DNA of 64,000 nt from an uncultured Hyphomicrobium sp. (GTDB lineage Bacteria > Pseudomonadota > Alphaproteobacteria > Rhizobiales > Hyphomicrobiaceae), in NCBI RefSeq assembly GCF_902826555.1, contig NZ_CADEFI010000004.1:28768-92767 (forward strand). Reading direction: 5' to 3'. A model generated the notes under the pieces. The model did not search any database and was not told the origin of the DNA. It worked only from the letters and a program-made list of their open reading frames with translations. Position 1 is the stretch's first letter. Every line of letters begins with the position of its first letter. Shown here in pieces: positions 4,648 to 25,448 of this stretch. The translations under genes were made by a program, and so were the position numbers.

Positions 4648-6576
4648 TCATCGAAAAGGAGGCGGTAAGCGACCTGCCTCGCTGAGAATGTCGAAAACCT
4701 TCTTCGCGCCGTCGTAGCTGAGATGACCGCTGTCTCGATAGAGAATGACGCCATCAATGAGAGTGTGGCAGACCGTCTCGTTACACGTAACGTCGGAAAG
4801 CCTGACAACCGCGGCTCCGGCTTTCGAAGCCGAATCCATGAGGCGGCCGACTCCGACTGAGCCGGCGAAATACAATTCGGCCGACTGCTCGCATTGATTG
4901 GCGTAGGACGCCACTCGCTTCGTCGCCAGACGTTCGTTGCAGACAAGGTTCTCCTCATCGACTCCGGGCGGAGGCGCAACAACGACCACGTGCTTGCCCG
5001 CAAGGCGCAAGCGATGAATCTCGTCGACCAGAATTCTTTCCGTCGTATCGAGATCGGATGCTTCAACACGCGCGGTTCCGGCGCCGTCGCGGCGCATCAT
5101 CTTGAAGCCGGGAACGGTGTATTGCCAGAAGGAAGCAGCGATGATCACGGTTCGGATCGAGCGCTCCTGAAGCACGAACTTCTCGACGCCATCGTTGAAG
5201 GCAATGCAATATTTCGAGACGAGATCGGCGTCATCGCGCGCTGGCGCGTACGGCGCATATCCAATGAACGGCGGGCATGCGCTATATGTCGCCTGCACGA
5301 GTCCGTCGGGCAGATGATACCTCGCGCCGGAGGCGACCGCCATCGCGTATGAATCGCCCCAGATCAGCGCCGTCGGCGCGGCCGATGTTCGACACTCATT
5401 TCGGTTTTCAAAGATGTAATTGTCGCACGCAATATCAAGCCCGTAATTGGGTCGCTTGAGGTGCGCCAGATCTACGCGTCCACGGGCATATGCTTGCGCC
5501 GCAATCTGGACAGCCGCCGCCATCAAGCCAATCAGCATGGCCGTAGAAGCAAGGCGCAGTCGCCGCAGACTCAGCCGTCTGCCTGGCTCCTCAACTGCCA
5601 AATGGAGGCCGGTCGCCAGCGCGATCGACACCACCAGGCCCGAGGCTCGAATTGCAATCGGGGGCTCCATGCCAAACGCGTTGTTCAGGAAAGCGACAAC
5701 CGGCCAATGAACGAGATAGAGCGAGTATGAGATGTCGCCCAGCTTCTGGAGGGTCATTCTGCTCGGATAGGTCTCGACGATTTTCCCCCTCTCCGCCAGG
5801 ATGATGACCAGGGTCGCGAGGCATACGAGAGCGGCGTCGATGCCCGGGTGCGGCATGCCTGTGCCGACGATCGGCACCGCAACAAGGACACCGAGGGCTG
5901 GCCAGTAGGCCACGGACGTCCACCTGGGCCGCGTGGCAATGAGGGCGCCGAATGCACCCAGCATCAATTCCCATGCTCGCGTCGGGAGCAGATAGAACGC
6001 GGTCGTTGGACTGAACGATACGACGCAGAGGCAGGCGATGAAGCTCAAGGCTGCCGCAAGCGCAATCGCGCGGTGCCGATGCCTCTTGGGAACCAGAACC
6101 AGGAAAGCTGGAAATATGATGTAAAACTGCTCTTCGACCGCGAGCGACCAGAGATGGAGCAGTGGCTTGAGACCGGCGGCAACGTCGAAGTAGCCGACCT
6201 GGCTCCAGAGCACGAAGTTGATAGTGTATGTGATCGCGCCCCATGTTTGAGCCGTGAGAGACGCCATCTCGACGGAATCGAGAAACCAGATCGAGGCGAC
6301 GGACGTCAGGATGATCGTGACATACACCGCGGGCAGAAGGCGTTTGGCACGGCGGCTATAGAACTCCGCGAACGAAAATTTACCGGCGTCGATCTCGCTC
6401 GTGACAATCCTGGTGATCAAGAATCCGGATATGACAAAGAATATATCGACGCCGAGAAAGCCCTGGTGAAACGGGCCGATCTTGAAATGGTCCAGCACGA
6501 CGAGGCCGACCGCGATCCCGCGGAGCGCCTGAATATCTGCGCGAATTTTGGTCCTCGCCCCCATTTGGCTGAGCAT
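4648..6576 (-). CDS. OafA/YrhL-type acyltransferase with C-terminal SGNH domain
   Basis: A 642-residue membrane O-acyltransferase. The first ~350 residues form the acyltransferase-3 domain with about ten membrane helices and the signatures ALRGIAVGLVVLDH, GFLGVDIFFVISGFL and LWSLAVEEQFYI. The rest is a periplasmic SGNH-hydrolase-like domain with the GDSYA block and a C-terminal DSGHLS block supplying the Asp-His pair. This architecture O-acetylates cell-surface polysaccharide, LPS or peptidoglycan. It stands alone but lies at the edge of the polysaccharide locus, so a glycan from that locus is a reasonable substrate (inference). A second ATG four codons in (MGARTK) may be the true start. Confidence 0.93.
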   Translation of the reverse strand: MLSQMGARTKIRADIQALRGIAVGLVVLDHFKIGPFHQGFLGVDIFFVISGFLITRIVTSEIDAGKFSFAEFYSRRAKRLLPAVYVTIILTSVASIWFLDSVEMASLTAQTWGAITYTINFVLWSQVGYFDVAAGLKPLLHLWSLAVEEQFYIIFPAFLVLVPKRHRHRAIALAAALSFIACLCVVSFSPTTAFYLLPTRAWELMLGAFGALIATRPRWTSVAYWPALGVLVAVPIVGTGMPHPGIDAALVCLATLVIILAERGKIVETYPSRMTLQKLGDISYSLYLVHWPVVAFLNNAFGMEPPIAIRASGLVVSIALATGLHLAVEEPGRRLSLRRLRLASTAMLIGLMAAAVQIAAQAYARGRVDLAHLKRPNYGLDIACDNYIFENRNECRTSAAPTALIWGDSYAMAVASGARYHLPDGLVQATYSACPPFIGYAPYAPARDDADLVSKYCIAFNDGVEKFVLQERSIRTVIIAASFWQYTVPGFKMMRRDGAGTARVEASDLDTTERILVDEIHRLRLAGKHVVVVAPPPGVDEENLVCNERLATKRVASYANQCEQSAELYFAGSVGVGRLMDSASKAGAAVVRLSDVTCNETVCHTLIDGVILYRDSGHLSYDGAKKVFDILSEAGRLPPPFR

Positions 6577-7860: not shown

Positions 7861-9486
7861 TCAAGACGAGCGGTCGCGCTCACTAAGTGCCTTGAGATAC
7901 TTTTCCTCTGCGTTTGAACGCTTTTCTTCCAGCGTTCGGTTCTCTTGCATGAGTTGCGCAATGCGCAGCTCATAGTCTGAACGACGCGCCTCGAGATCTT
8001 CGCTCAGCGCCAGTAAGTCGGCAATGCGTGCTCCATCACTCTGTTGACGGGCCTCATAAGATCCGACTTGCTGCTCCAGCCGAAAAATTTGCTCTTCGTG
8101 AGACGCGCGACACGTTTCAAGCCTTTGGGTCAAAGCCAGCAACTCGTGGATGCGCCGCTCGCCAGCGGCCCTCGCCGTCTCCAGGGACTCATTTGTCTCT
8201 AGCAGCTCGCCGGTGCGCGTTTCAGCCCGAGCACGCTTTTCCTCGAGCAAGTTCGCAAGCTCGCTCAGCGATTCAACACGCATGACTTCTTGCGCCCCTA
8301 TAGAAGCGGAAGGTTTGGCGAGCCTTCTCCAGACCGCGTCTCCTTCTCCTTCAAGTTCGACCTGCTTGATGTCGTGCAGGGGAGAGTGAACACGAACAGC
8401 AAAGCCGAATTTCGCCGGAGCGAGCGCGGGCAGGGTGGCCCAGCCATCGTCGTCCCATCGCAGAGCAATGCTCTCCTGCGAAAGAAAATCGTACGCAGCA
8501 GCATCAGCGTTGGGCGTCACGCGAAATCTTCGTGGTAGCCGCGGAAGCAGGAAGACTGTCGAGCCTGATGGCTCCGAGATTACGCGCACGTCACGCCCAT
8601 AAGCGTCAGGATCGACGAGTACGGGCAAAGCAGAGACCGCCAACGCTTGCTGGGGCTCATGCGGTGGAGCCGAAGCGTCCTCTTCCGCCAACATTGGCGC
8701 CCGGGACGACAACTGCTTGTCGAACAGCACGACAATCTCGGAACGCTTCGGCCACTTGATGCGTCCTTCGATTGCAAGACCATAGTGCATGGCCTCGAAC
8801 AGGCGCTCTATCGCGCCATCCATGCGGGCCGGAGAAGGGCGATGGGCAGTTCCGCAACGCGGACATAGTGCATGCTCAAAGGCATAGTTTCGTCCATTGG
8901 CGAGATGAAGCAGCGCAACCACTTGCTCCGAGCTGAAGACCCATCGTCTGCCGCAGAATGCGTGAGCTGCCACACCGGCACGCCCTTCCCACAAGCGGGC
9001 GACGCTGGCCGCGGAGAATGCGCGCTGATGCCAGTGGACGTGATAGCAATGACCGCAACCCGAACACTCGACGGTCGCTACGTCGAGGATTTCATCGTAC
9101 GGAACCGCGACCAGCAGCCAACGCGAAGAAACCCTGAACAGTTCATCGAGAGCCTTCCCGTACATGGCGTCCGGAAGGTGCTCCAGCACGTCGGTTGCCA
9201 ACACCAAGTCGAATTCTTCATCTTCAAATGGAAGATCATGCAGGCTTGATATGCGCGTCTCGCGGCGGACGTGCTTGAGGGCTTCTTCTGAGATGTCGCA
9301 GCCGACCACGCGGCGATCGGAGGGAAGGATATTCGTTATGAAGCCGTTGCCGCAGCCCGCGTCGAGAATGCTTTGAGCGCCTGCCGGCAGAAGGCCGATC
9401 ACCTTGTCGCGCATCTCCACGCTGGAGGAGTCGACCTGGGCGTCGTCCCACAGACTGGACTGCTCATAGTAGGTGCTCGAGTTCAT
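7861..9486 (-). CDS. SAM methyltransferase with C-terminal coiled coil
   Basis: A 541-residue multidomain protein. Residues about 1-240 are a class I SAM methyltransferase: motif I is LDAGCGNG at about 41-48, followed by LATDVLEHLPD. Two Cys/His clusters (CSGCGHCYH near 139-147, and CPRCGTAH later) suggest bound zinc. A middle domain (about 270-395) is rich in beta-type sequence. The last ~140 residues are a long heptad-rich coiled coil full of Glu, Arg and Leu. The ATG directly abuts the wzt stop codon. A methyltransferase with a coiled coil beside a Wzt with a long C-terminal domain recalls WbdD, which caps O-antigen chains and uses its coiled coil as a length ruler. No kinase domain is visible. 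The role in chain termination is inference. Confidence 0.85.
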   Translation of the reverse strand: MNSSTYYEQSSLWDDAQVDSSSVEMRDKVIGLLPAGAQSILDAGCGNGFITNILPSDRRVVGCDISEEALKHVRRETRISSLHDLPFEDEEFDLVLATDVLEHLPDAMYGKALDELFRVSSRWLLVAVPYDEILDVATVECSGCGHCYHVHWHQRAFSAASVARLWEGRAGVAAHAFCGRRWVFSSEQVVALLHLANGRNYAFEHALCPRCGTAHRPSPARMDGAIERLFEAMHYGLAIEGRIKWPKRSEIVVLFDKQLSSRAPMLAEEDASAPPHEPQQALAVSALPVLVDPDAYGRDVRVISEPSGSTVFLLPRLPRRFRVTPNADAAAYDFLSQESIALRWDDDGWATLPALAPAKFGFAVRVHSPLHDIKQVELEGEGDAVWRRLAKPSASIGAQEVMRVESLSELANLLEEKRARAETRTGELLETNESLETARAAGERRIHELLALTQRLETCRASHEEQIFRLEQQVGSYEARQQSDGARIADLLALSEDLEARRSDYELRIAQLMQENRTLEEKRSNAEEKYLKALSERDRSS

Positions 9487-11262
9487 TCAGGAAAGTCGCC
9501 TCCAGTTGGCCTCGTGCAAGTAATCGCCGGTCTCCGTGAAAAAATCCGGCGGCTGGACAACTTTCAAACGAAATCGCCGATCCAAAACGTGCAATGGCTC
9601 TGTTCCGTTTCGATGTTCGTTTTGCAGATTACGGAAGATGCCAACCGAAATAATATAGTCTTTCGGACCGAGGCGTACAGGCTTGAGATCGACCCGATCG
9701 AGATGGGGCCCGCGGTCTCTCGATGACACCGGACTGATGAGTTGTGCGGCACAGCGGCCGTCCATTGTGTAGATGGCGACCACCAGGCGGCAATGGACAA
9801 TCCGTTCCTCGGCCGTCCACTGAACCTCGATTGACAGAGGTTCGCCACAAACAACAACTCTTTGCTCGCTCTTACTCGCATCATCCGGCGCGAAGAACCG
9901 GACACTTCCGATCTGAACCGCCCCCTCTCCGTAAGCATCGCCTTCGACCAAATTGTCTTCAGGGTGTGGGGAAGGAGCATGGGGAGGCCCAAACACCTCA
10001 GCCAATTGCTCAGGGAGATGGAACGTCTCGACCCGCCAATTCCCGGCCTCCGTAGGCGCCAGGACGCCAGCGCAAAAATACGCCTCGCCCGTCGAGAATT
10101 CTATGCGAACTTGATCATCGATCGTGGCGCCGTGCTCAATTTCGACTGTCAATGCCCTGTAGTTGTTGAGCAGCTTCGGCAACCTTATGGCAAACGGTGC
10201 GTGATGGTACGCGCCCCCCTCATCCCTAAATTCTCTCCACGACGGGCTGTCGTTCGAGGACTGGGACGCAGACCAATTTGTGTAACCTGACACGGCTATC
10301 GCGTGGAGGTCCTCCTCGGGATCGTTGTCGCGGGCATCGCCTAAGCGAACGCTCGCTCTTTCCTCGTCGTTGTGCAGCAGCCTCAGCGACCTGATCGGAT
10401 GCCTTCCCTTCGGCGGAGAAGGTGCGCCCGTCACAAGCCGCCCGGTAAGGGTTATGAATTCTCCATCTGATTGAGGTATGCCATGCCCAAAACCCGTTTC
10501 CGATGCTTGAAGGCGAATGTTCTCCTGTTTCCGCGTGGCGGCGACGTACGCCTTGCACACGCTCAACGTATCGCCCTCATCGACAATTCGACCCCGATCA
10601 ATCCATATCGCGCGATCGCACATCATCTGGACTGAGGCCAGATCATGGGAAACGAACAGCAGCGTTATTCCATTGTCGGTCAAGGCCCTCATCCGGGCCA
10701 CGGCCTTGAGTGAAAAATACGCGTCACCGGCACCAAGTATCTCGTCGACGATGAGGATCTCAGGCTCAATAGTCGTGGCAACGGTAAAGGCCAATCGGGC
10801 CTGCATGCCCGAGGAATACGTGCGGAACGGCTGCTCGATGAACTCGCCCAACTCCGCGAACTCCAGCACCTCCCGGGTTTTGACCTGCGCTGCAGCCCCG
10901 GTTACGCCCAGATAAGCCAGCGCTGCCCTTACATTCTGCAGTCCCGTAAGATCGGGATGGAAACCCGTTCCCAGTTCCATCAGGGCTGTCACGCGGCCAT
11001 TGGCCTGAAACTCGCCGCAAGTTGGACGCACCAAACCTGCGACAATCTTCAGTAGCGTGCTTTTGCCGGCGCCGTTGCGCCCGATGAGGCCGACGCGCTC
11101 TCCCCGCCGGACCACCAGATCAATGTCCTTGAGAGCCCAGAAATCCGAGCTCACGTTGTTGGGTACTGGCAAGCCCAACGCTTCCGCAACGCGCCAGCCC
11201 TGAGATCGAAACAAGCGGTATCGCTTGCCCAAGCCGCGCATCGCTATGGCATTGTCAGACAT
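9487..11262 (-). CDS. wzt: ABC transporter ATP-binding subunit Wzt with extended C-terminus
   Basis: The 591-residue ATPase of a polysaccharide exporter. The nucleotide-binding domain occupies about 1-240: Walker A GRNGAGKST (61-69), signature YSSGMQ, Walker B ILIVDE and the His switch in FVSHD. Beyond it lie about 350 residues, much longer than a bare KpsT-type ATPase. The last ~150 resemble the Wzt carbohydrate-binding domain (segments VQWTAEERIVHCRLVVAIY and DYIISVGIF). A further domain of ~150 residues lies between. Such C-terminal domains recognise the modified non-reducing end of the glycan before export. It overlaps wzm by 8 bases and runs directly into the methyltransferase gene. Confidence 0.92.
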   Translation of the reverse strand: MSDNAIAMRGLGKRYRLFRSQGWRVAEALGLPVPNNVSSDFWALKDIDLVVRRGERVGLIGRNGAGKSTLLKIVAGLVRPTCGEFQANGRVTALMELGTGFHPDLTGLQNVRAALAYLGVTGAAAQVKTREVLEFAELGEFIEQPFRTYSSGMQARLAFTVATTIEPEILIVDEILGAGDAYFSLKAVARMRALTDNGITLLFVSHDLASVQMMCDRAIWIDRGRIVDEGDTLSVCKAYVAATRKQENIRLQASETGFGHGIPQSDGEFITLTGRLVTGAPSPPKGRHPIRSLRLLHNDEERASVRLGDARDNDPEEDLHAIAVSGYTNWSASQSSNDSPSWREFRDEGGAYHHAPFAIRLPKLLNNYRALTVEIEHGATIDDQVRIEFSTGEAYFCAGVLAPTEAGNWRVETFHLPEQLAEVFGPPHAPSPHPEDNLVEGDAYGEGAVQIGSVRFFAPDDASKSEQRVVVCGEPLSIEVQWTAEERIVHCRLVVAIYTMDGRCAAQLISPVSSRDRGPHLDRVDLKPVRLGPKDYIISVGIFRNLQNEHRNGTEPLHVLDRRFRLKVVQPPDFFTETGDYLHEANWRRLS

Positions 11263-12061
11263 AATCTGCCGCCAGCGTCTTCAATCGGGAAATGAGATGG
11301 AAGCCGGCAACAAATAATAGCAGTGAGAATGACCCAAACAGGAAGCCGTACTCCCAAGGTATGACCCCGTGGTGGATCACGTCGCGATAAATCGAAATCA
11401 TGTAATATAAGGGATTCACCGCAAGAATAGGCATCATGCTGTCCGGCACCATGTCCTTGGTATAGCCGATAGGGGACACGAGCATCAAAAACAGGATGAG
11501 CGGCGACACCAGATTGCCGAGATCGCGAAAAAATACGTTCAAGATCGACAGCGCCCACACCAGACCTATCGAAAAGAGCCATTGTATTGCAATGGCAAAA
11601 GGCAGCGCGACGATCGAAAGGTGCAACTCGCCGCGAACGCCCAAAATCAAGATCAAAATGCAAAGACCGACCACCATCGTCACGGAGGACACGATCACCG
11701 TTTTTACTGCGATGAGCTCGACAGGGAATATCGCGCCCTTCAAGAACGACCTATTCTCTATCAGGCTGCCTACGCCCGAGGAAAGAGACTCCGTAAACCC
11801 AAGAAACGGAATGAGTCCCGAGAAAATAATAAGAGTGTACTCGAATGAGCTCTTTTCCGGCACGCGAACTTGCAGAATGAGCGTAAAAACCAGACTATAA
11901 AGTCCCAAAAAAATCAGCGGAAAGAGGAACGTCCACAGCAATCCGAACGTGCTGGCTTGATACCTTTGGCGCAAGTCGTGAAGACTTGTGGCGACCACAA
12001 CTCCGCGCTTGTCCCAAATGAGCCGAAAGGGCATCGCGATCGCCATAATCATATGCCGCAT
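11255..12061 (-). CDS. wzm: ABC-2 type polysaccharide exporter permease Wzm
   Basis: A 268-residue inner-membrane permease with about six helices, partner of the Wzt ATPase. The N-terminal amphipathic segment and DLRQRYQASTFGLLW block followed by hydrophobic helices are typical of the Wzm/KpsM/TagG family. The start at 12061 (MRHMIM) is chosen because its ATG shares one base with the TGA of the glycosyltransferase gene before it. The longer frame from 12130 would overlap that gene by 70 bases. The DNA is visibly richer in A and T than the flagellar genes, which suggests horizontal transfer. Confidence 0.92.
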   Translation of the reverse strand: MRHMIMAIAMPFRLIWDKRGVVVATSLHDLRQRYQASTFGLLWTFLFPLIFLGLYSLVFTLILQVRVPEKSSFEYTLIIFSGLIPFLGFTESLSSGVGSLIENRSFLKGAIFPVELIAVKTVIVSSVTMVVGLCILILILGVRGELHLSIVALPFAIAIQWLFSIGLVWALSILNVFFRDLGNLVSPLILFLMLVSPIGYTKDMVPDSMMPILAVNPLYYMISIYRDVIHHGVIPWEYGFLFGSFSLLLFVAGFHLISRLKTLAADYV

Positions 12062-13329
12062 CAGTGCACCCGCTCGCCACGCCGAATATTGCCGTACGCC
12101 GTAACAAGCTTTCGACCTTCCACGCCCCAATTTAACAGCTCTGCCGCACGCCGGGCGGCGGCACGCAGCTCGGAAATGCGCTGATCGTCCCTCACCACAT
12201 TGACGATCGCGGCCGCCGCTGATTCAGGCGTGCTGAGATCAGCGATAGCTCCGAAGCCGTACGTATCGACGACTTCTCTCAGGTAGGGCAGATCGTTGGC
12301 CAGGAACGGAAGCTCGGCGACCGCATATTCGAAAAGCTTGTTGGGACTGCAATAGAGATGGTTCAGATCGACGGCTTTGTAGGGAATGATCCCCAGATCG
12401 GCCTGCGCCGTGAGAACCGACAACTCCTTCGGTTCCATTCGCCCCAAAAATAGAACGCGCCCGTCGTCCGTTCCTTGTTGTCGACTGATCGACACCAAAT
12501 CCGCTTCGCAAGCACCGTAGCCGACAAGCACCAATCGGACGTCATCGGGAAAATGCCTGGCCGACTTCACGAGAACGTCGATACCGCGCTCAGGTGACAT
12601 CCAGCCCTGATAGAGCACGACACGATCGGTAGACCGAATTCCGAAGTGCTGCCTCAACTCGGCATCTCGCTTGCCGATTTTGGGAGCTTGAGGAGCCGCG
12701 TTTAAAATGACCATCGGCGCCTTGCATGCATAGTCGCGCGCCATGATGCCCGCAATGTAGGGGTTCACCGTTATCGATAGGTCCGCAGCCCCTATGAACT
12801 TGCGCTCCAAGCGCCGATACCGTCGGCGGATGGCAGATGGAAGCTGGGCTTGCGCATGATAAAGTTCGTGAGCATCGTAGACAAGGGCACACCCACGCCG
12901 CTTTTTGACCTCCGCCCCAACGCGCAACAACGGAAAATCATGCACGTGGAGAATGTCGAACTCTCGCCGCATGACGTGGCTCAGGACAAAGTGTTCAAAG
13001 CTTGAGATGCCCGTCGCCAACGAGACCGCCCGACGCGTACCGCGCCAGAGATATGGCCACCACCAAGCGGTTCGCGCGGTAATAGAGTGTAAGATGCGGG
13101 CGACGCGGGCATCGCTCCAATCGAACACAAAGCGGGAGATTGGGATGCCGTGATGGTCATAGCCGGAACTCTGCGCGCATTCGAAGCCAGCAAGAATCTC
13201 GACAACGAAACCCGCGTCTCGCAGGCTTTCTGCTTCTTGAAGGATTCGCCGATCGATCATGAGGTGATCGGTCGTGATCATTAGGACCTTCAAGCGACAC
13301 CTATCGGACCGTTCTGCAGACCGTGGCAT
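12061..13329 (-). CDS. GT4-family glycosyltransferase
   Basis: A 422-residue GT-B fold glycosyltransferase. The N-terminal acceptor domain has DILHVHDFPLL and LVYDAHELYH; the C-terminal nucleotide-sugar domain has VLYQGWMSPERGIDVL, LVLVGYG and the E-x7-E region in SPNKLFEYAVAELPFLAND. It adds one sugar to the polysaccharide on the cytoplasmic face. Donor and linkage cannot be deduced. It overlaps both neighbours by single bases (TAATG upstream, TGATG downstream), so it is translationally coupled in the operon leading to wzm-wzt. Confidence 0.9.
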   Translation of the reverse strand: MPRSAERSDRCRLKVLMITTDHLMIDRRILQEAESLRDAGFVVEILAGFECAQSSGYDHHGIPISRFVFDWSDARVARILHSITARTAWWWPYLWRGTRRAVSLATGISSFEHFVLSHVMRREFDILHVHDFPLLRVGAEVKKRRGCALVYDAHELYHAQAQLPSAIRRRYRRLERKFIGAADLSITVNPYIAGIMARDYACKAPMVILNAAPQAPKIGKRDAELRQHFGIRSTDRVVLYQGWMSPERGIDVLVKSARHFPDDVRLVLVGYGACEADLVSISRQQGTDDGRVLFLGRMEPKELSVLTAQADLGIIPYKAVDLNHLYCSPNKLFEYAVAELPFLANDLPYLREVVDTYGFGAIADLSTPESAAAAIVNVVRDDQRISELRAAARRAAELLNWGVEGRKLVTAYGNIRRGERVH

Positions 13330-14528
13330 TACGACAATAACAACTCAGCGTAGATCTGGAATAGACGCTCAGCAACCGCGTCCCAAGTGCGACTCTGCAA
13401 GACCTCCTCTGCGATCGAGCGCCCATCATAGCCAGAATAGGTCTGGCTCATTCTTAGTATTCCGTCGAGCAGGCCGCCTTCGGTGTTGCCGACAATCATG
13501 CCGTTGTGCCCTGACACCACGTAATCCTCGGGGCCCCCGCAAGTCGTTGTCAACACAGGGCGCCCGCACGCCAGAGACTCGAGCCCGGACAAGCTGAAGG
13601 TTTCCTTGTAGCTCGCCACAACGATAAAATCGTGATCGGAAATCGCCGCTGAAATACCTTTCCTATCAGCCATGGGAAGGAAATGAATGGTACCCGCGGC
13701 TCCTCCCAGCTTTTCAAATTCGACAGCGACCTCCCGATGCACGGACGGCGATCCAAGAACACTTAATTCAACCGATGCTCCTTGTTTGAGTGCAGCAGCG
13801 AAAGCTGCAACCAGCCTTTTCCCGCCCTTGACTTCGCCTCCCGCGCCGGCGAGCCAAAGCATCTGTGCCGGGCGATGGACCCGGACGGGATGAGTCCGGA
13901 GTTGAAAAATCTGCGGGTCGAACCCGTTGCCGAGAATTTGCACCTGCTCGGCGTCCGATCCAAGCTCGGCCAGCATGTCCCTTTTGAGGGCGTGGCTCAC
14001 TGCGAGAACACGGTCGGCTGAACGAACAGACTTTCTCGTGAAATGTTTCAGGATCCCATTGCGCGTGAGTAGAGAAAATGGGCCCATGTGCTCGGTCAAG
14101 ACAACCCTGCGGCCGAATTTCTTCCCGAGTTTTATTGCCGAGTACCCGTCCAGAAAAGATGTGTGGGCGTGAACGATATCGAACGGAAATCGAGCCCTTA
14201 TCATCTCGATGACGCGTCGGACCCCGTGCCAATAACTCAGCGCATGAAGGGGATGACGAAAGTAACCGCCTACGCAGTAAGGGAAGTAGACGATTGGAAC
14301 GCCCTCTCTCACCCGCCAACGAAATGGTTCTTCCAAATAAGCTTGAAGAGCCCGCGACACCTTCCGGAAATCATATGTCGATATCCAGAACGGCTCGCCA
14401 CTCAGAACTGCAACACTTGCGCCTCGCCTTATGAGAGCTTTGGCTTGTTCTTGAACAAAAACCCCACCCGCTGGGTAATATTCGCGCGGATACATGTGCG
14501 AAAGCACGAGCACTCGCAGGCCGTCCAT
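13329..14528 (-). CDS. GT4-family glycosyltransferase
   Basis: A 399-residue GT-B glycosyltransferase. The N-terminus (LSHMYPREYYPAGGVFVQEQ) and FDIVHAHTSFLDGYSA are typical of GT4 enzymes acting on cell-surface glycans. The C-terminal donor domain contains LWLAGAGGEVKGGKRLV and the E-x7-E motif in SLSGLESLACGRPVLTTTCGG. It is co-transcribed with the next glycosyltransferase (TAATG junction) and the ABC exporter. Its ATG follows immediately after a TAG that closes a short open frame from the upstream scar region. Confidence 0.9.
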   Translation of the reverse strand: MDGLRVLVLSHMYPREYYPAGGVFVQEQAKALIRRGASVAVLSGEPFWISTYDFRKVSRALQAYLEEPFRWRVREGVPIVYFPYCVGGYFRHPLHALSYWHGVRRVIEMIRARFPFDIVHAHTSFLDGYSAIKLGKKFGRRVVLTEHMGPFSLLTRNGILKHFTRKSVRSADRVLAVSHALKRDMLAELGSDAEQVQILGNGFDPQIFQLRTHPVRVHRPAQMLWLAGAGGEVKGGKRLVAAFAAALKQGASVELSVLGSPSVHREVAVEFEKLGGAAGTIHFLPMADRKGISAAISDHDFIVVASYKETFSLSGLESLACGRPVLTTTCGGPEDYVVSGHNGMIVGNTEGGLLDGILRMSQTYSGYDGRSIAEEVLQSRTWDAVAERLFQIYAELLLS

Positions 14529-14793: not shown

Positions 14794-15837
14794 TCAAACG
14801 CGATAGTAGTCGCGATACCATTTGACGAACCGGCGCACGCCCTCCTCGATCGGCGTTTGCGGCTTGAAGCCCACGTCGCGCACGAGATCGTCCACATCTG
14901 CGCACGTTTCCGGCACATCTCCCGGCTGCAACGGCAGCATGACTTTCTGCGCCTCCCGGCCGAGCTCCGCCTCGAGGCAGCCGATCAGGCTCATGAGTTC
15001 GACGGAGTTGTTGTTGCCGATGTTGTAGATCCGATAAGGCGCGGAGCTCGTGCCCGGATCGGGCTCTTCACCATCCCAATGCGGGTTCGCATCCGGGATC
15101 GTATCGCTCGTCCTCAGCACGCCCTCGACGATGTCATCGATGTACGTGAAATCCCGCCGCATCTTGCCGTGATTGAAGACGTCGATCGGCTTCCCTTCGA
15201 GGATCGCTTTCGTGAACAGGAAAAGCGCCATATCCGGACGACCCCAGGGGCCATAGACAGTAAAAAACCTGAGACCGGTGGTCGGCAGTCCGTAGAGGTG
15301 GCTGTAGCTATGCGCCATCAGCTCGTTGGCTTTCTTTGACGCCGCATAGAGGCTGACGGGATGATCGACGTTCTGGTGCACCGAGAACGGCATGCTCGTA
15401 TTGGCGCCGTAGACGGAACTCGAAGAAGCGTATGTGAGATGCCGGACACCGTTGTGCCGGCACCCCTCCAGAACGTTCAGAAACCCGACGAGATTGGCAT
15501 CTGCATAGGAATGCGGATTGATGATCGAGTAGCGCACACCGGCTTGAGCAGCGAGGTGGATGACGTAAGCCGGCTTCAGCCGCGCGAACAGCTCGGACAT
15601 GTCGTCCCGCGCGGCGATATCGATCTTTTCGAAGGAGAACCCGTTGCGCCCCGAAAGCTGCGCGAGACGCGCCTCCTTGAGCGCCAGGTCGTAATAGTCG
15701 TTGAGGTTATCGATGCCGTAGACTTGGCTCCCGCGGTCCAGGAGAGCGCAAACCACATGAAAGCCGATAAACCCGGCAACGCCTGTTACGAGAACGGGAC
15801 CGGAGCCCGGCGATTGCGCCATGTCTGTCAAAACCAT
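14794..15837 (-). CDS. NAD-dependent UDP-glucuronate 4-epimerase-like protein
   Basis: A 347-residue extended short-chain dehydrogenase. The Rossmann motif is VTGVAGFIG near the start; the catalytic Ser is in [11 protein letters not shown] and the Tyr/Lys pair in YAASKKANE. The segments [16 protein letters not shown] and [13 protein letters not shown] are typical of the LpsL/CapI/uge group that converts UDP-GlcA to UDP-GalA. Length fits. An internal ATG five codons in (MAQSPG, 15822) is an alternative start. It heads the minus-strand unit ending in the exporter and methyltransferase, and supplies a uronic acid donor. Substrate is inferred from family. Confidence 0.88.
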
Positions 15838-16827: not shown

Positions 16828-18123
16828 ATGAATTTGGACAAAGAAGTAATTTCCGTCATTGGCCTCGGCTATGTCGGACTGCCCCTGGCTGTTGAGTTCG
16901 GCAAAAAACGCCCTGTCGTAGGATTCGACATCAACACGGCACGCGTCGCAGAGCTTAAGAGCGGTCACGATCGCACGCTCGAAGTGGAGGACGCCGAGCT
17001 GTCCGCCGCCGGTCAGCTCACCTATACGAGCGACCCCAAAGACCTCGGCCGCTGCAAGGTGTTCATCGTCACCGTGCCGACGCCGATTGACGAGGCGAAC
17101 CGGCCGGATCTCACGCCCCTCATCAAGGCTTCCGAAGCCATCGGATCCGTGATGCCCAAGGGATCGGTCGTGATCTACGAATCGACGGTTTACCCCGGCG
17201 CAACCGAGGAAGTCTGCGTGCCCGCCCTCGCTCGGGCATCGGGCCTCACCTTCAACAAGGACTTCTTCTGCGGCTACAGCCCGGAGCGCATCAATCCTGC
17301 CGACAAACAGCACAAGCTGCCGACCATCAAGAAGGTGACGAGCGGTTCGACGCCTGATGTGGCAGAAGCAGTCGACAAGCTCTACCGCGAGATCATCACC
17401 GCCGGCACCCACAAGGCCAGCAGCATCAAGGTCGCCGAAGCCTCGAAGGTGATCGAGAATACCCAGCGCGATCTCAACATCGCACTGATGAACGAGCTGG
17501 CGGTCGTATTCGCCCGCATCGGCATCGATACGGCCGAAGTGCTGGCAGCCGCCGGCACCAAATGGAACTTCCTGAACTTCCGGCCCGGCCTCGTCGGCGG
17601 CCACTGCATTGGCGTCGACCCCTACTATCTGACCCACAAGGCCGAGCAGCTTGGCTACATCCCGCAGGTCATCCTCGCCGGACGGCGCATCAACGACAAC
17701 ATGGGCCGCTACGTGGCGCGCAACACCGTGAAGCTCATGCTGAAGCAGGGCATTGACGTCGCGCGCAGCCGCATCGGCGTCATGGGCATCACCTTCAAGG
17801 AGAACTGCCCGGACATCCGCAATTCCAAAGCCGTCGACATCGTGAAGGAGCTTCGCGACCACGGCGCCGAGGTGTGCGTCACCGACCCGAAGGCAGATCC
17901 CGACGAAGTAAAGCACGAGTACGACATCGCCCTTGGTGAGATTTCCGCCAAGGCGCCAGTCGATGCGCTCATCGTCGCCGTCGGCCACGACGAATATCGC
18001 CGCATGACGCCTGACGAGCTGCGCCGGCTGGTTCAGGGCGAAAAGCCGCTGCTCGTCGACGTGAAAAGTCTGTTCGATCGCCATGCCTGCACCGACGCGG
18101 GCTTCAAGGTCTTCCGGCTATAG
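16828..18123 (+). CDS. wbpA: UDP-N-acetylglucosamine 6-dehydrogenase (WbpA/TviB type)
   Basis: A 431-residue nucleotide-sugar dehydrogenase that oxidises UDP-GlcNAc to UDP-GlcNAc-uronate in two NAD-dependent steps. The Rossmann motif is IGLGYVGLPLA near the N-terminus and the catalytic Cys260 is in GGHCIGVDPYYL. The family features VPTPID, STVYPGATEE and GYSPERINPAD are intact. The Vi/WbpA subtype rather than UDP-glucose dehydrogenase is assigned mainly because wbpB, wbpD and wbpE homologues follow directly. It starts the plus-strand operon; wbpB follows after 11 bases. Confidence 0.93.
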   Translation: MNLDKEVISVIGLGYVGLPLAVEFGKKRPVVGFDINTARVAELKSGHDRTLEVEDAELSAAGQLTYTSDPKDLGRCKVFIVTVPTPIDEANRPDLTPLIKASEAIGSVMPKGSVVIYESTVYPGATEEVCVPALARASGLTFNKDFFCGYSPERINPADKQHKLPTIKKVTSGSTPDVAEAVDKLYREIITAGTHKASSIKVAEASKVIENTQRDLNIALMNELAVVFARIGIDTAEVLAAAGTKWNFLNFRPGLVGGHCIGVDPYYLTHKAEQLGYIPQVILAGRRINDNMGRYVARNTVKLMLKQGIDVARSRIGVMGITFKENCPDIRNSKAVDIVKELRDHGAEVCVTDPKADPDEVKHEYDIALGEISAKAPVDALIVAVGHDEYRRMTPDELRRLVQGEKPLLVDVKSLFDRHACTDAGFKVFRL

Positions 18124-18134
18124 AGGCAACAACC

Positions 18135-19190
18135 ATGACCCATCCGGCCATCAGTGGACGAAAGGTGAGGTTTGCATTGGTCGGCGCCGGCCGAATTGCA
18201 GCCAACCATTTCGGGGCCATCGAGAAGCATGCGGACCGCTGCGAGCTTGTCGACGTCTGCGATGTTGTGCCCGACGCTCTCAAGGCCGCCACAGAGCGCA
18301 CGAAAGCGACCGCTCACACGTCGCTCGCCGGGTTGCTTGAGAAGACCACCGCCGACTGCGTCATCCTGACGACCCCCAGCGGCTTGCACCCGAGCCAGGC
18401 CGTTCAGGTCGCGAGAAGCGGGCGCCACGTGATGACTGAAAAGCCGATGGCGACCCGCTGGAAAGACGGTCTCGCCATGGTGGAAGCCTGCGACGCCGCG
18501 GGCGTGCACCTCTTCGTCGTCAAGCAGAACCGCCGCAACGCCACGCTACAGCTCGTCAAGCGCGCCATCGAGCAGGGCCGCTTCGGCCGCATCTATTCCG
18601 TCGCCATCAACGTCTTCTGGACGCGCCCACAGGACTACTACGACAGCGCCAAGTGGCGCGGCACATGGGAGTTCGACGGCGGCGCCTTCATGAACCAGGC
18701 CAGCCACTACATCGATCTGCTCGATTGGCTGATCGGCCCCGTGGAAAGCGTGATGGCCTTCACCGCCACGTTGGCGCGCAATATCGAGGTTGAGGACACG
18801 GGCGTGGCGGCGTTGCGCTGGCGCAGCGGAGCGGTGGGAACGCTCAACGTGACCATGCTCACCTATCCGAAGAACCTCGAGGGCAGCGTCACCATCCTCG
18901 GTGAAAAAGGCACCGTCCGCATCGGCGGCCTCGCTGTCAACGAGATCCAGCATTGGGAGTTCGCCGACAAGCGCCCCGAGGACGAAAGCGTAAAGCAGGC
19001 CAACTACGAGACGACCAGCGTCTATGGTTTCGGCCACCCGCTCTACTACGACAACGTCATCAAGACGCTGCGGGGCGAGGCGGAAGCCGAAACCGACGGC
19101 CGTGAAGGCTTGAAGTCGCTCGAGTTGCTGATCGCCATGTATCTCTCGGCGCGAGACGGCACGCGCATCTCTCTTCCGTTGGAGTATTGA
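18135..19190 (+). CDS. wbpB: UDP-GlcNAc-uronate 3-dehydrogenase (WbpB, Gfo/Idh/MocA family)
   Basis: A 351-residue NAD-binding oxidoreductase of the Gfo/Idh/MocA family. The dinucleotide motif is [10 protein letters not shown], and the [14 protein letters not shown] block with the catalytic Lys matches WbpB. It oxidises C3 of UDP-GlcNAc-uronate to the 3-keto sugar, which WbpE then aminates; in characterised systems the NADH is recycled with 2-oxoglutarate. It sits between wbpA and wbpD with short gaps (11 and 4 bases), so the operon is tight. Family and neighbourhood agree. Confidence 0.92.
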
Positions 19191-19194
19191 GGTC

Positions 19195-19779
19195 GTGACC
19201 GCCGCAACCGTTCACCCGACCGCGATCGTCGATGCTGGCGCCACGATCGGCGACGGCACGCGCATCTGGCATTGGGTCCACGTAAGCGGCGGCGCTCGCA
19301 TCGGACGCGACTGCTCGCTCGGACAGAACGTTTTCGTGGGCAACAAGGTCACCATCGGCAACAACGTCAAGATCCAGAACAACGTCTCCGTCTACGACAA
19401 CGTCACGCTCGAGGACGACGTGTTTTGCGGCCCGAGCATGGTCTTCACCAACGTCTACAATCCGCGCTCTCACGTCTCGCGCAAGAGCGAGTACCGGGAC
19501 ACGCTTGTGAAACGCGGTGCCACGCTCGGCGCCAACAGCACCATCGTTTGCGGCGTCACCATCGGCGAGTTTGCCTTCATCGGCGCCGGCTCCGTCGTCA
19601 ATCGCGACGTTCCCGCCTACGCGCTGATGATCGGCGTTCCAGCTCAACGCATCGGCTGGATGAGCGAGCACGGCGAGCGCTTGAACCTGCCCGCTGAGGG
19701 CAACGGCGAAGCCACCTGCCCGGCCACCGGCCGGCGCTACGTTCTCGAAAACGACATCTGCCGTCCCCATTCGGACTAG
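19195..19779 (+). CDS. wbpD: UDP-GlcNAc3N-uronate N-acetyltransferase (WbpD)
   Basis: A 194-residue left-handed beta-helix acetyltransferase. Hexapeptide repeats run through most of the protein (for example [16 protein letters not shown] and [18 protein letters not shown]), followed by a short C-terminal extension with a Cys ([10 protein letters not shown]). It acetylates the 3-amino group of UDP-2-acetamido-3-amino-glucuronate. The start is a GTG four bases after the wbpB stop; the GAGG before it serves as ribosome site. It acts with WbpE, whose gene follows 7 bases downstream. Confidence 0.92.
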
Positions 19780-19786
19780 GGATCCA

Positions 19787-20932
19787 ATGCAGTTCATCGA
19801 TCTGAAGGTGCAGCAAGCGGCCATCAAGCCGGATCTGGACAGGCGCATCGCTGCCGTGCTCGCACACGGCCAGTACATCATGGGGCCGGAGGTCGCCGAG
19901 CTCGAGGCGGCACTCGCCGCCTATGTCGGCGCCAGGCACTGCGTCACGGTCGCGAGCGGAACCGAAGCACTTCTCATAGCGCTGATGGCGCTCGGCGTCG
20001 GACCAGGTGACGAGATCATCACCACGCCCTTCACGTTCGTCGCCACCGTCGAGGTCATCGCACTGCTCGGTGCCACGCCCGTGTTCGTCGATATCGAGCC
20101 CGCAACGACCAACATCGATCCGGCCCTGATCGAGGCCCGGATTACACCGCGCACGAAGGCCATCATTCCGGTCAGCCTTTACGGTCAGGTAGCGGATATC
20201 GAGGCCATCAATGCGGTCGCAGCCCGCCACGGCAACATTCCCGTGATCGAGGACGGCGCACAGAGCTTCGGCGCCACGGCCGATGGGCGGCAGAGCTGCG
20301 GGCTCTCGACCTTCGGCTGCACGAGCTTCTTCCCGTCGAAGCCCCTCGGCTGCTACGGCGACGGCGGCGCGCTCTTCACCAACGACGATGATCTGGCGCG
20401 CGCCTGCCGCGAGATCCGCGTGCACGGCCAGAGCAAGCGCTACGTGCACACGCGCATCGGCGTCGGTGGGCGTATGGACACGCTCCAGTGCGCGATCGTG
20501 CTCGCCAAGCTGACGCGCTTCCCTTGGGAAGCCACCCAGCGCAGCGCAATCGGCGGCCGCTATACGACGCTCATCCATGAACGCGTTCCCGGCGCGAAGC
20601 CGGTCGAGACCCGCGATGTCGGCCAGCCTCTCAGCGGCGTGAGAACGCTCATCCTCAGGCCGGAACGAACGAGTGTATACGCCCAGTACACCGTGCTCGT
20701 GCCGCAGCGGGAGAATGTGCAGGCCAAGCTGCAAGCAGCCGGCATCCCGACCGCTGTTCACTACCCTGTGCCGCTCAACCAGCAGCCTGCCTACAAGGAT
20801 CTGGCGCCGGGCGACGCCACCCCGATCTCCGCATGGGCGGCAGAGCACGTCATGAGCCTGCCCATGGGACCTGATCTCTCGGAGAGCGACCAGGACCGCG
20901 TCGTCGCCGCCTTGGCGACCGCCGTCGCCTAG
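19787..20932 (+). CDS. wbpE: UDP-2-acetamido-3-keto-glucuronate aminotransferase (WbpE)
   Basis: A 381-residue PLP aminotransferase of the DegT/DnrJ/EryC1 family. Asp in IEDGAQSFGA should contact the pyridine nitrogen and Lys185 in FFPSKPLGCYGDGGA forms the Schiff base. It uses glutamate to aminate C3 of the keto-sugar made by WbpB. The set wbpA-wbpB-wbpD-wbpE gives UDP-2,3-diacetamido-2,3-dideoxy-glucuronate. No WbpI-type 2-epimerase is in the window, so the gluco form may be used directly. It converges on the C5-epimerase gene with 25 bases between. Confidence 0.92.
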   Translation: MQFIDLKVQQAAIKPDLDRRIAAVLAHGQYIMGPEVAELEAALAAYVGARHCVTVASGTEALLIALMALGVGPGDEIITTPFTFVATVEVIALLGATPVFVDIEPATTNIDPALIEARITPRTKAIIPVSLYGQVADIEAINAVAARHGNIPVIEDGAQSFGATADGRQSCGLSTFGCTSFFPSKPLGCYGDGGALFTNDDDLARACREIRVHGQSKRYVHTRIGVGGRMDTLQCAIVLAKLTRFPWEATQRSAIGGRYTTLIHERVPGAKPVETRDVGQPLSGVRTLILRPERTSVYAQYTVLVPQRENVQAKLQAAGIPTAVHYPVPLNQQPAYKDLAPGDATPISAWAAEHVMSLPMGPDLSESDQDRVVAALATAVA

Positions 20933-20957: not shown

Positions 20958-22289
20958 TCAGTTTCGGATGATGGACAACGCCTTCATCGCATCCCTGTAG
21001 GTCGATCGATGATGGGCCGGGATATGGCCCTTCGTCGCCTTGAGCGAGATCGCCCCGGCGTCCGTGGAGAAGGACACGCGAACGAAACGCGCGAAGGGAA
21101 GAGATACGGTGCCGCTACCCTTGATGGTGCCGATTTGGCGCCAATCGCCGAAACGATCGGACACGGACACATCGAGCGCACCCGGGCCTGTGGCCGAGAA
21201 CGCCACCTCCGTGGCGGTTCCGCGCGCGAAAATGAGCCAGCCGTCGCAGGACACGCGAAATTCGCCCTCGCCCCTGACCGCGGCGACATGTGTAAGCGCG
21301 CTTCCGAGATTGCAGCGGTTCACGATCGGCGCGTATCGCGCCGAATCCGACCTGTTGATCGGATCGATGAGATTGAACAGGAAGCGCGAAGCCCACTTGA
21401 CGAAGATCTCGTCGCCGGTCGTATCCGCGAGCCACAAGAGCTGGTTGATGTGCCCGAAATGGTAGCTGTCGCGACGCGCACGCAACGGCGCGTGCACATA
21501 TCCCAGCGCATAGAGCGACGTATAGCCGATATCGAAGTCGGCGATATCCTGGCGGACCGCCTCGACGCCACGATCGAAGATATCCTTCCACACGGCAGCG
21601 CCGGTGATCTGATAGAAATCGAGGATACCGGCCAGTCCCGAGATATGGCCGTTCAGGATCTTGAACGAATGGCCTGAGGGATCCGGCGCCTCCTCGATCC
21701 AGATCGTATGGCCGACCGGCGTGGCCACGCCGCCCTGCTCGAGAGGCTTGAGATACACGCCCATCGCCTTTTCGGCAGCGTCGCGGAACTCCTCGCGGCC
21801 CGTCAAGGCATGCGCCCGCGCCAGCACACCGGCAATCCACGATTGGCCAATCCCCGAAATCCATCCCTCCGCCAGGTCGTACTCCTTGTTACGAAAGGGA
21901 TAGGTCCAAACTAGCGTATCCCCGCGCTTGGTCGCGGAATGCAGCAGAAAATCCGCCTGAATGAGAAAGAGGCGCTTCTTGTCGTCGTCCTTGCTTCTCA
22001 GCCATTCGCCGTAAAGAAAATGCGCATACTTGGAAATGAAATACGGATTAGGCCACTTGCCGAGGCCGCCGTATTTTTTTCCGTAGTCATAGACAAGGAC
22101 GCCATCCTCACGCACGGAAAAGCTTTTCGATTTCGCGAAGGCTTCGGCGGATTGCTGCCCGAGATAGGGATGAACACCAATATCGGCAGCGCTGGCGCAT
22201 TCGGTCAACATGCATAGAGAGAGCAAGAGGGCGGAGATATGACGCCAAGCCACTGCAAATACCTTCTGCTGAGAATGACGCCCCATCAT
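20958..22289 (-). CDS. Secreted D-glucuronyl C5-epimerase family protein
   Basis: A 443-residue exported protein. A signal peptide (core ISALLLSLCMLTE, likely cut at ASA-AD near residue 35) precedes an alpha/alpha-toroid domain of the glucuronyl C5-epimerase C-terminal family. Signatures are SGIGQSWIAGVLARA, LNGHISGLAGILDFY and, most telling, YHFGHINQLLWL, which matches the YHxxHINQL block of heparan-sulfate epimerases. Such enzymes flip C5 of glucuronate to iduronate within a polymer. Periplasmic or secreted location implies it acts after export. It is monocistronic and lies next to uronic-acid sugar genes. Substrate is not known. Confidence 0.82.
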   Translation of the reverse strand: MMGRHSQQKVFAVAWRHISALLLSLCMLTECASAADIGVHPYLGQQSAEAFAKSKSFSVREDGVLVYDYGKKYGGLGKWPNPYFISKYAHFLYGEWLRSKDDDKKRLFLIQADFLLHSATKRGDTLVWTYPFRNKEYDLAEGWISGIGQSWIAGVLARAHALTGREEFRDAAEKAMGVYLKPLEQGGVATPVGHTIWIEEAPDPSGHSFKILNGHISGLAGILDFYQITGAAVWKDIFDRGVEAVRQDIADFDIGYTSLYALGYVHAPLRARRDSYHFGHINQLLWLADTTGDEIFVKWASRFLFNLIDPINRSDSARYAPIVNRCNLGSALTHVAAVRGEGEFRVSCDGWLIFARGTATEVAFSATGPGALDVSVSDRFGDWRQIGTIKGSGTVSLPFARFVRVSFSTDAGAISLKATKGHIPAHHRSTYRDAMKALSIIRN

Positions 22290-23595: not shown

Positions 23596-23608
23596 GAGCA
23601 ACAGCGCC

Positions 23609-24784: not shown

Positions 24785-24788
24785 GGCG

Positions 24789-25448
24789 TCAATCCTTGTC
24801 CAATGTGCGCGCCGGATTGCCGGCGACCGTTACACCCGGTAGCACGTCGCGCGTCACCACGGCTCCCATGCCGACCACCGCGCCGCGCCCGATCGTCAGC
24901 GGCGCACCCGGCCGCCCCTGGCGCAGCATTGCCCCGGCACCGATGTAGGCGTGATCCTCGATGCGCACGTTTCCATTGCAGATGACGCCGGGCGCGAAGG
25001 TCACGAAATCCCCGATGACGCAATCATGCTCGACGATGCTGCCGATGTTGGCGTGAAACTGGCGGCCGATGCGGATGTTGGATGTGATGGTTACGGTCGG
25101 ACTGAGAAGTGCGCCGTCACCGAGAACGACGTCGTCCATGATGACGACACTGCTCGCACGCACCGACCACGGTTGCACATCGTCCGCTTGGCACTTGTCC
25201 GCGAGTTTCTCCCGCACGCCGCTGTCGGCGACGGCGAGCGCCGCGAAGCGCTCCGGCGCCGGAATCGCCAGGAACGCCTGGTACGTCAGAACACGATGGC
25301 CATTCAGCACTTCGGCCGGCGGCTTGTCGTCGATGAACACCAGACGATCGGCTGACACGCCGGCCGCGGCAAGCATCTCGCGCGCGAGCGGAAGGATGCC
25401 TCGCCCACAACCACTCGCGCCGTAAATGCCATAAAAAGGACCCGTCAT
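24789..25448 (-). CDS. PglD/NeuD-family sugar acetyltransferase
   Basis: A 219-residue acetyltransferase. The N-terminal ~90 residues form a Rossmann-like nucleotide-sugar binding domain (IYGASGCGRGILPLA, then VFIDDKPP); the C-terminal half is a left-handed beta-helix of hexapeptide repeats with the catalytic His in GSIVEHDCVIGDF. The family N-acetylates UDP-4-amino-6-deoxy-GlcNAc (PglD) or O-acetylates sialic acid (NeuD). With a DegT aminotransferase directly downstream, the PglD role is favoured. It overlaps the sugar transferase gene by 4 bases. Confidence 0.88.
   Translation of the reverse strand: MTGPFYGIYGASGCGRGILPLAREMLAAAGVSADRLVFIDDKPPAEVLNGHRVLTYQAFLAIPAPERFAALAVADSGVREKLADKCQADDVQPWSVRASSVVIMDDVVLGDGALLSPTVTITSNIRIGRQFHANIGSIVEHDCVIGDFVTFAPGVICNGNVRIEDHAYIGAGAMLRQGRPGAPLTIGRGAVVGMGAVVTRDVLPGVTVAGNPARTLDKD

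Follow-up and report, generated by a model that had tools for sequence, protein, structure and literature searches.

Introduction

In known systems that export surface glycans through Wzm/Wzt, a coiled coil separates the chain terminator from the polymerase, so that only sufficiently long chains receive a cap, which Wzt then recognizes as the signal for export (PMC11231755, PMC9445017, PMC3482155). The coil is established as a ruler in two systems, Escherichia coli O9 and Klebsiella O12 (PMC11231755). Here we describe a candidate for a similar device in a stretch of 64,000 nucleotides—hereafter called "the window"—from an uncultured Hyphomicrobium sp. (NCBI RefSeq assembly GCF_902826555.1, contig NZ_CADEFI010000004.1, positions 28,768 to 92,767 of the forward strand). 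It is encoded by two adjoining genes, one for a protein with a methyltransferase domain, a middle segment and a coiled-coil-like tail, and the other for a Wzt ATPase with an extra region ahead of its carbohydrate-binding domain. We propose that the pair probably couples chain termination to export, and that the coil may act as a ruler in addition.

WbdD, WbbB, O4 ORF7 and O7 ORF6 belong to a functional class of coiled-coil terminators for ABC-exported glycans. Judged by its sequence, the window protein would belong to the same class, since its coil is joined to an enzyme of the terminal-modifying type, with a predicted action at the chain end, and Wzm and Wzt are encoded alongside. With WbdD of E. 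coli O8 it shares the gene order (wzm, wzt, methyltransferase/coil gene), the succession of a methyltransferase and a coil-like tail, the lack of a kinase, and related core domains. In contrast, O8 WbdD (477 residues in L094, an E. coli plasmid) has by eye neither the Cys4 site nor the middle domain described below, the O8 Wzt (404 residues) leaves no room for the extra region, and the O8 glycan is a polymannose, while the glycan here would contain uronate. The preliminary description of this locus had listed the absence of a kinase among its departures from known systems. The absence itself stands, as no kinase was found and the middle segment is too short for one, but it is not a departure, because a methyltransferase-only homologue suffices in O8 (PMC3482155).

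In WbdD of O9a and of Klebsiella O3, as in the scheme proposed here, the methyltransferase lies at the far end of the coil and the cap is read by Wzt. In O9a, however, a kinase (residues 211-459) lies between the methyltransferase and the coil, and a methyl phosphate is added (PMC3482155), whereas no kinase was found in the window protein. The latter would therefore work like WbdD, yet not be of the O9a kind, having no kinase and no detected homology beyond the core that binds S-adenosylmethionine (SAM). ORF6 of Klebsiella pneumoniae O7 likewise joins a methyltransferase to one or more further domains, a coil and C-terminal glycosyltransferases (GTs), and has homologues with and without GTs (PMC11231755). 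It differs by a 223-residue cryptic kinase and an immunoglobulin-like carbohydrate-binding module (CBM) before the coil (PMC11231755), for which the window segment does not have the length. The published list of O7 ORF6 orthologues may overlap with the Cys4 family defined below.

WbbB of Klebsiella O12 carries the terminator, the coil and the polymerase GTs in one chain, an arrangement to be compared with two relatives of the window protein (L092 and L011), but its cap is 3-deoxy-D-manno-octulosonic acid (Kdo) and not a methyl group. WsaE of Geobacillus stearothermophilus is a methyltransferase–GT fusion that forms a 2-O-methyl cap for Wzm/Wzt export; the excerpt of PMC2943079 mentions no coil, and reports that methylation in vitro is independent of chain length. 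The Wzt of Aquifex aeolicus is homologous in its nucleotide-binding domain and its C-terminal carbohydrate-binding domain, but has 404 residues and no extra region, and its Trp362 is not conserved here. As for the sugar, the Bordetella O-antigen system has a polymer that contains a 2,3-diacetamido-uronic acid (PMC2279256), which resembles the glycan suggested by the genes of the window.

A methyltransferase with a split Cys4 site

The two open reading frames (ORFs) lie where they had been placed before, at 7861-9486 (minus strand, 541 residues) and 9487-11262 (minus strand, 591 residues), and abut each other. Overlapping Pfam methyltransferase models cover approximately residues 22-130 of the 541-residue protein, the best being Methyltransf_11 (residues 41-119, 9.8e-16), and nothing besides these models exceeded the cut-off in the Pfam scan of the protein. 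Cys141, Cys144, Cys208 and Cys211, together with His153, are invariant in all 12 aligned rows, that of the window included, and Arg155 and Glu250 are among the further invariant residues. The preliminary description had seen two zinc-like Cys/His clusters; the four invariant cysteines are better read as a single site, split by 63 residues, which would bind a metal.

The methyltransferase core aligns with O8 WbdD at an hhalign probability of 93.8% over 113 columns, covering the SAM core only. Homology to O8 or O9a WbdD beyond this core was not found, either in the hhalign comparison with O8 WbdD or among the 25 PDB hits at 1e-5, none of which is named WbdD. In the phage records, the methyltransferase protein has no match.

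The middle segment, described before as a beta-rich domain of unknown fold, has no family match: neither the Pfam scan of residues 265-400 nor the comparison of the segment with PDB sequences gave a match at E<=1. It can be aligned to the corresponding segment of the Pseudomonas loci L092 and L093. In a PDB sequence search with two middle segments, the best E was 0.26 for one and there was no match for the other. A hidden kinase was considered and ruled out, since the window segment has about 130 residues, fewer than the kinases of O9a WbdD and Klebsiella O7, and no Pfam kinase was found at E<=1 in any of the six middle segments scanned. We also compared the middle segments of the window branch with those of a second branch, characterized by 24-residue coil repeats; no profile similarity was detectable, and a common origin is not claimed.

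Recurrence of the terminator–exporter pair

How widely does the pair occur? A scan of genome contigs yielded at least 592 stretches and at least 165 relatives, of which the best 80 were kept. The Cys4 pattern was applied to all 80 loci (L041-L085 were tested for this pattern alone, selected genes were tested in L006-L040, and gene tables were examined for L006-L014 and L032). Among these best 80 of at least 165 relatives, it picks seven loci, L006-L012, which are called the family. A long Wzt lies within the fetched stretch in five of them (L006, L008, L009, L010 and L011). In a Pseudomonas sample, the methyltransferase profile matches 4 of 298 genomes, one of which is that of L009, and the sample provides three further loci (L091, L092 and L093). 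The closest named plasmid relative, L004, from a Pseudomonas frederiksbergensis plasmid, carries wzm, wzt (591 residues, 37.8% over the full length to the window) and, as a split version of the terminator, a 291-residue methyltransferase gene and a separate 401-residue middle-plus-coil protein.

At least nine relatives thus carry the methyltransferase, the middle segment plus tail, and the long Wzt, so that the recurrence of the pair in other genomes, raised in the preliminary description, is borne out by nine loci, five of them with a coil–GT fusion as in Klebsiella O7 and O12. Their Wzts are 34-43% identical to that of the window over the alignment, and wzt adjoins the methyltransferase gene in eight of the nine, L006 being the exception. 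The coil end is fused to a glycosyltransferase in L006, L008, L011, L092 and L093, and the order in all five is methyltransferase, tail, glycosyltransferase. The fused enzymes are relatives either of the window's GT2 (36.8% identity in L092, 37.7% in L093 and 30.6% in L006) or of its GT1 (42.0% over 255 residues in L011 and 28.7% over 397 in L008), and in the window itself both enzymes have genes of their own, in one run with that of the coil protein.

The methyltransferase and Wzt trees agree on the main groups. Both join the window to L092/L093 (88/95; 90/89) and L011 to L004, L009, L010 and L091 (97/97; 100/100), while the positions of L007, L008 and L012, on long branches, are unsure. Moreover, a profile built from the extra Wzt region matches the same 4 of 298 Pseudomonas genomes as the methyltransferase profile, and no other. 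This co-occurrence is partly circular, because all four genomes are in the Wzt profile and one (G751) is in the methyltransferase profile; its non-circular part is that the other 294 genomes show no Wzt region alone at the threshold. In an untrained test among 72,556 plasmid records, the window Wzt tail alone as query has one match, the P. frederiksbergensis plasmid that also holds the best methyltransferase match, and two more records match the methyltransferase in part.

A separate observation concerns the metagenome contig L032 (L032:2-10654), which carries wzm, a shorter wzt (441-residue ORF) and, several genes on, a 646-residue ORF with a methyltransferase match. No Cys4 pattern was found in it, and it is possibly another terminator type.

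The coiled-coil-like tail

Coils were assigned by simple statistics—a proline-free stretch, a hydrophobic period and an internal repeat—and the tail length is that of the longest proline-free stretch that follows the methyltransferase and precedes the GT, if one is present. In the window protein, where a coil of about 140 residues had been noticed, residues 393-541 form a 149-residue tail with zero prolines. Its hydrophobic period is 3.51, with a power reached in 14 of 1000 shuffles, and its 21-residue internal repeat (lag-21 identity 0.297, reached in 0 of 5000 shuffles) means three heptads per repeat. No tandem repeat was found at the DNA level in the window methyltransferase-coil gene.

The corresponding tails have 196 residues in L092, 198 in L093, 107 in L006 and 57 in L008, and 250 in L004, 275 in L011, 288 in L091, 461 in L009 and 540 in L010. 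Periods near that of the window are found in L092 and L093 (3.50 in both, with the power reached in 0 of 1000 shuffles) and in L006 (3.50, 4 of 1000). In the branch built of 24-residue units, the periods are 3.43 in L009 (0 of 1000), 3.43 in L011 (1 of 1000) and 3.45 in L091 (14 of 1000). The unfused coil proteins of this branch, L004, L009, L010 and L091, have a C-terminal tail (M/I)ENRxG in common.

The number of unbroken units in the 24-residue register is 3 in L004, 8 in L091, 9 in L011, 14 in L010 and 16 in L009. Tandem repeats are visible in the DNA of three of these genes, with 11.5 copies of 72 bp in L010 (90% match), 6.2 copies of 144 bp in L009 (78%) and 2.6 copies of 144 bp in L011 (97%). 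The units of L010 have a mean DNA identity of 73% within the protein, as compared to 50-57% to the units of the other four proteins; the corresponding values are 66% versus 54-57% for L009, and 62% versus 51-55% for L011. In L004 and L091, such an excess within the protein is absent. Among these five loci, the methyltransferase domains share 51-75% identity at the protein level. Because the units are more alike within L010, L009 and L011 than between proteins, a lineage-specific expansion of the coil repeat is likely in these three of the five.

If a coil of 24-residue repeats with about 3.43 residues per turn, as in L009 and L011, is one continuous coil, then a three-residue stammer would be needed per repeat, in our reading. 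We also note that the O8 WbdD coil encoded by the E. coli plasmid pECO-5e72 (NZ_CP026400; L094:2831-4264) contains an exact tandem duplication of 156 bp (52 residues), with 156 of 156 bases identical. Among the 60 E. coli genome matches listed, of 303 matching records, 59 span 1278 bases and therefore do not have the duplication, and the 60th is a partial match. The duplication is either a variant of ruler length that occurs in nature or an artefact of the assembly.

A bolder picture, possible but on balance doubtful, is that of expandable rulers in the Pseudomonas and Hyphomicrobium branch. The coil would be built of 24-residue (72 bp) units with 7 turns per 24 residues, or about 3.43 residues per turn, and the copy number would shift by recombination between near-identical repeats. 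The glycan length could then evolve with the repeat number, independently of the capping enzyme, and the two-domain Wzt would inspect the cap and one further feature of the chain before export.

The extra region and the putative cap-reading domain of Wzt

In the window Wzt, Pfam recognizes ABC_tran at residues 44-174 and Wzt_C at residues 443-570, the latter with 31.0 bits against a cut-off of 30.4. The ATPase part matches PDB entry 8dku (5.9e-56), which is the Aquifex Wzt according to PMC9445017. The part past the ATPase, put at about 350 residues before, measures about 346 (246-591). Its last ~150 residues form a domain homologous to the cap-binding domain of Aquifex (profile E 2e-6), in agreement with the cap reader suggested earlier by comparison with WbdD/Wzt, and also match the O8 Wzt at an hhalign probability of 84%.

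Between these two parts lies the extra region (246-438), which can be aligned in 10 of 10 family Wzts with four invariant columns; in L008 it is divergent, weakly alignable and without the GG..HAP motif. None of the four members scanned has a Pfam match in this region, and the PDB search gave no match (best E 0.2). The idea that it is a duplicated cap-reading domain is unsupported (hhalign probability 0.1%). Comparisons of the extra region with the middle segment of one branch, and of the cap-reading domain with that of the other, gave no similarity.

In the Aquifex Wzt, Trp362 stacks on the methyl group of the cap, and its replacement by leucine essentially abolished the binding of lipopolysaccharide (PMC9445017). 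At the position that our own alignment maps to Trp362 in the numbering of that paper, all 10 family rows have valine or leucine. L006 has a tryptophan one place past it, and the family rows share an invariant arginine three places after it. The O8 Wzt has a tryptophan aligned to this place by hhalign. Trp362 is a feature of the Aquifex cap and not of all Wzts, and since the tryptophan is not kept while the domain is, the cap read here should differ from the Aquifex cap.

Proposed mechanism

How would the window protein measure a chain? The methyltransferase would cap a glycan that contains uronate and is linked to polyprenol, at its non-reducing end. The coil, which may be oligomeric, would dock its end onto GT1/GT2 and thereby keep the capping site about 22 nm from the polymerase (149 residues x 0.15 nm), so that only chains grown long enough would reach it. 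The C-terminal domain of Wzt, perhaps together with the extra region, would recognize the capped end, and Wzm/Wzt would then export the chain. We consider it likely that chain termination is coupled to export in this locus; this estimate covers termination and export, and the ruler comes on top of it.

The anatomy fits the known ruler scheme in most testable respects, and several points weigh against it, with L008 and the missing tryptophan as the main misfits. L008 has about 57 proline-free residues before its GT, with a period of 3.88 (182 of 1000 shuffles) and no coil signal, and a tail predicted to be this short could not serve as a long ruler. Nor is the period significant in L004 (3.57, 152 of 1000) or in L010 (3.43, 342 of 1000), although the 24-residue repeat of L010 is plain. 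The window protein does not have the (M/I)ENRxG tail of its four unfused relatives. Two of the nine relatives, L006 and L008, are metagenome bins, and the system is rare: in the phylum sample, the methyltransferase and Wzt-region profiles each match 1 of 398 genomes, the window's own. Homologues without wzm/wzt had been named in the preliminary description as evidence that would speak against the device, and the Cys4 methyltransferases L007 and L012, with no Wzt within about 10 kb, are such homologues of the methyltransferase core. Both, however, lack the coil as well, so that the device is not refuted and the enzyme family is wider than the device.

Could the methyltransferase decorate many residues instead, with an O-methyl group per unit or a methyl ester on the uronate, while the coil is a scaffold and the length is set elsewhere? 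A glutamine-dependent amidotransferase gene of the asnB type is present in all nine relatives (by BLAST with the annotated L004 asnB) and beside the methyltransferase in the Wzt-less L007 and L012, as compared to 1 of the 28 loci with weaker methyltransferase matches (L013-L040, several of which are short contigs). This link, which persists even without Wzt, suggests an action on the uronate unit, and L008 does without a long coil. On the other hand, all ten loci with a middle segment plus tail also carry a long Wzt whose last domain is of the cap-reading type, and the fused relatives place the tail between the methyltransferase and the GT, as in proven rulers (PMC11231755). We regard decoration along the chain as quite improbable.

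A terminator that does not measure is another alternative, in which capping would be decided by competition between the polymerase and the methyltransferase, and the coil would oligomerize or tether the enzymes. That the tail varies between about 57 and 540 residues while the other parts of these systems are similar is in line with it, whereas in the tested systems, O9a and O12, the coil is reported as a ruler (PMC11231755). We consider it rather unlikely; it shares termination and export with our proposal and disputes the ruler only, so that the likelihoods given to the two are not exclusive. Finally, the cluster might be decayed or idle, given that the full protein occurs in 1 of 397 genomes of the window's order (the window's own, with one other genome matching the methyltransferase domain only) and that the wbpI and asnB homologues are not found in the window. 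However, the module consists of intact, closely spaced ORFs, the SAM-motif and cysteine residues are kept, and homologues of both genes lie together on another contig of the same genome, which makes decay hardly credible. Termination with a ruler, coupled to the polymerase and the exporter, is favoured because the pairing recurs, because coils are fused to GTs, and because one relative has the terminator split into two genes.

Locus layout and sugar context

The features of the locus are collected in Table 1. The source genome comprises 3.72 Mb in 81 contigs. In the window, GT2, GT1, wzm and wzt form a tightly packed run on the minus strand with the methyltransferase-coil gene last, and the wzt stop directly adjoins the start of that gene. 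Further glycosyltransferases lie within 22462-27570, beside the aminotransferase, acetyltransferase and initiating sugar transferase genes, and flagellar genes begin at 27.7 kb of the window. On the other side, a 235-residue ORF adjoining the module (7010-7717, plus strand) matches neither Pfam at E<=0.1 nor NCBIfam at E<=0.01.

Table 1. Features of the terminator–exporter locus, in positions of the window
Feature	Position	Strand	Evidence
Methyltransferase – middle segment – coiled-coil protein, proposed chain terminator and ruler	7861..9486	-	541-residue ORF
Class I SAM methyltransferase domain with split Cys4 site, residues 1-262	8701..9486	-	Pfam Methyltransf_11 9.8e-16; 12-row alignment
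First CxxC, Cys141 and Cys144	9055..9066	-	12-row alignment
Second CxxC, Cys208 and Cys211	8854..8865	-	12-row alignment
Middle segment, residues 263-392	8311..8700	-	Alignable to Pseudomonas L092/L093
Proline-free coiled-coil-like tail, residues 393-541, 21-residue repeats	7864..8310	-	Sequence statistics
Wzt, exporter ATPase, 591 residues	9487..11262	-	ORF, Pfam, PDB sequence match
Wzt nucleotide-binding domain, residues 1-245	10528..11262	-	ABC_tran 6.1e-20; PDB 8dku 5.9e-56
Extra Wzt region, residues 246-438	9949..10527	-	Alignable in 10/10 family Wzts
Wzt C-terminal carbohydrate-binding domain, residues 439-591	9490..9948	-	Profile to 8dku E 2e-6; Pfam Wzt_C
Wzm permease	11255..12130	-	ABC2_membrane 9e-11; 50% to L092
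GT1, glycosyltransferase (glycosyl transferases group 1 / family 4 models)	12061..13329	-	Pfam
GT2, glycosyltransferase, type as GT1	13329..14528	-	Pfam
NAD-dependent sugar epimerase	14794..15837	-	Pfam
wbpA, wbpB, wbpD, wbpE homologues	16828..20932	+	Named by similarity
Glucuronyl C5-epimerase-domain protein	20958..22289	-	C5-epim_C 9.1e-35
Aminotransferase, NeuD-type acetyltransferase, initiating polyprenyl-phosphate sugar transferase, glycosyltransferase	23609..27570	-	
Membrane O-acyltransferase with SGNH domain	4648..6576	-	Pfam

The wbpA, wbpB, wbpD and wbpE homologues are what we take to be the genes for a UDP-diacetamido-uronate precursor. Genes like wbpA, wbpE and wbpI lie near seven of the nine relatives, the exceptions being the stretches fetched for L006 and L011. 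The wbpI and asnB-type homologues of the source genome are on contig C20 (48.8-54.8 kb; L105:6792-12758), where the wbpI homologue (57%), the asnB-type gene and two sugar epimerases of the short-chain dehydrogenase/reductase (SDR) type lie within 6 kb; this group may complete the pathway of the window. Proteins of the C5-epimerase type occur in five of the nine relatives (BLAST; Pfam on L009 only) as well as in the window. From these genes and general pathway knowledge, the glycan is probably a diacetamido-uronate or uronamide polymer. Two matches to the Wzy_C/ligase domain, which does not tell a ligase from a polymerase, are found in the source genome.

Large glucuronyl C5-epimerase-domain proteins are encoded near the exporter module in L009 (L009:14142-18350), with relatives in L008, L010, L011 and L091, and the L009 protein also has a transglutaminase-like core.

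Implications

The lack of a kinase is already known from O8, and a terminator with an extra CBM-like domain and GTs from Klebsiella O7 ORF6. New elements, as far as our limited searches reach, are the family of Cys4 methyltransferases, the middle segments, the additional region of Wzt, the setting among uronate genes and a coil made of 24-residue repeats; in the open-licence literature (titles and abstract openings), no description of the Cys4 family or of repeat-built rulers was found.

How surface sugar chains of a fixed length are made is a long-standing question. The systems described here form a natural series in which the parts are similar but the coil ranges from about 57 to 540 residues. 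Comparing them would put the ruler model to the test, as the chain length should follow the coil length. They also show several ways of splitting or fusing the methyltransferase, the coil and the polymerase, and include a Wzt that, through its extra region, may recognize other features besides the cap. If the proposed reading is right, the ruler principle would extend to diacetamido-uronate glycans.

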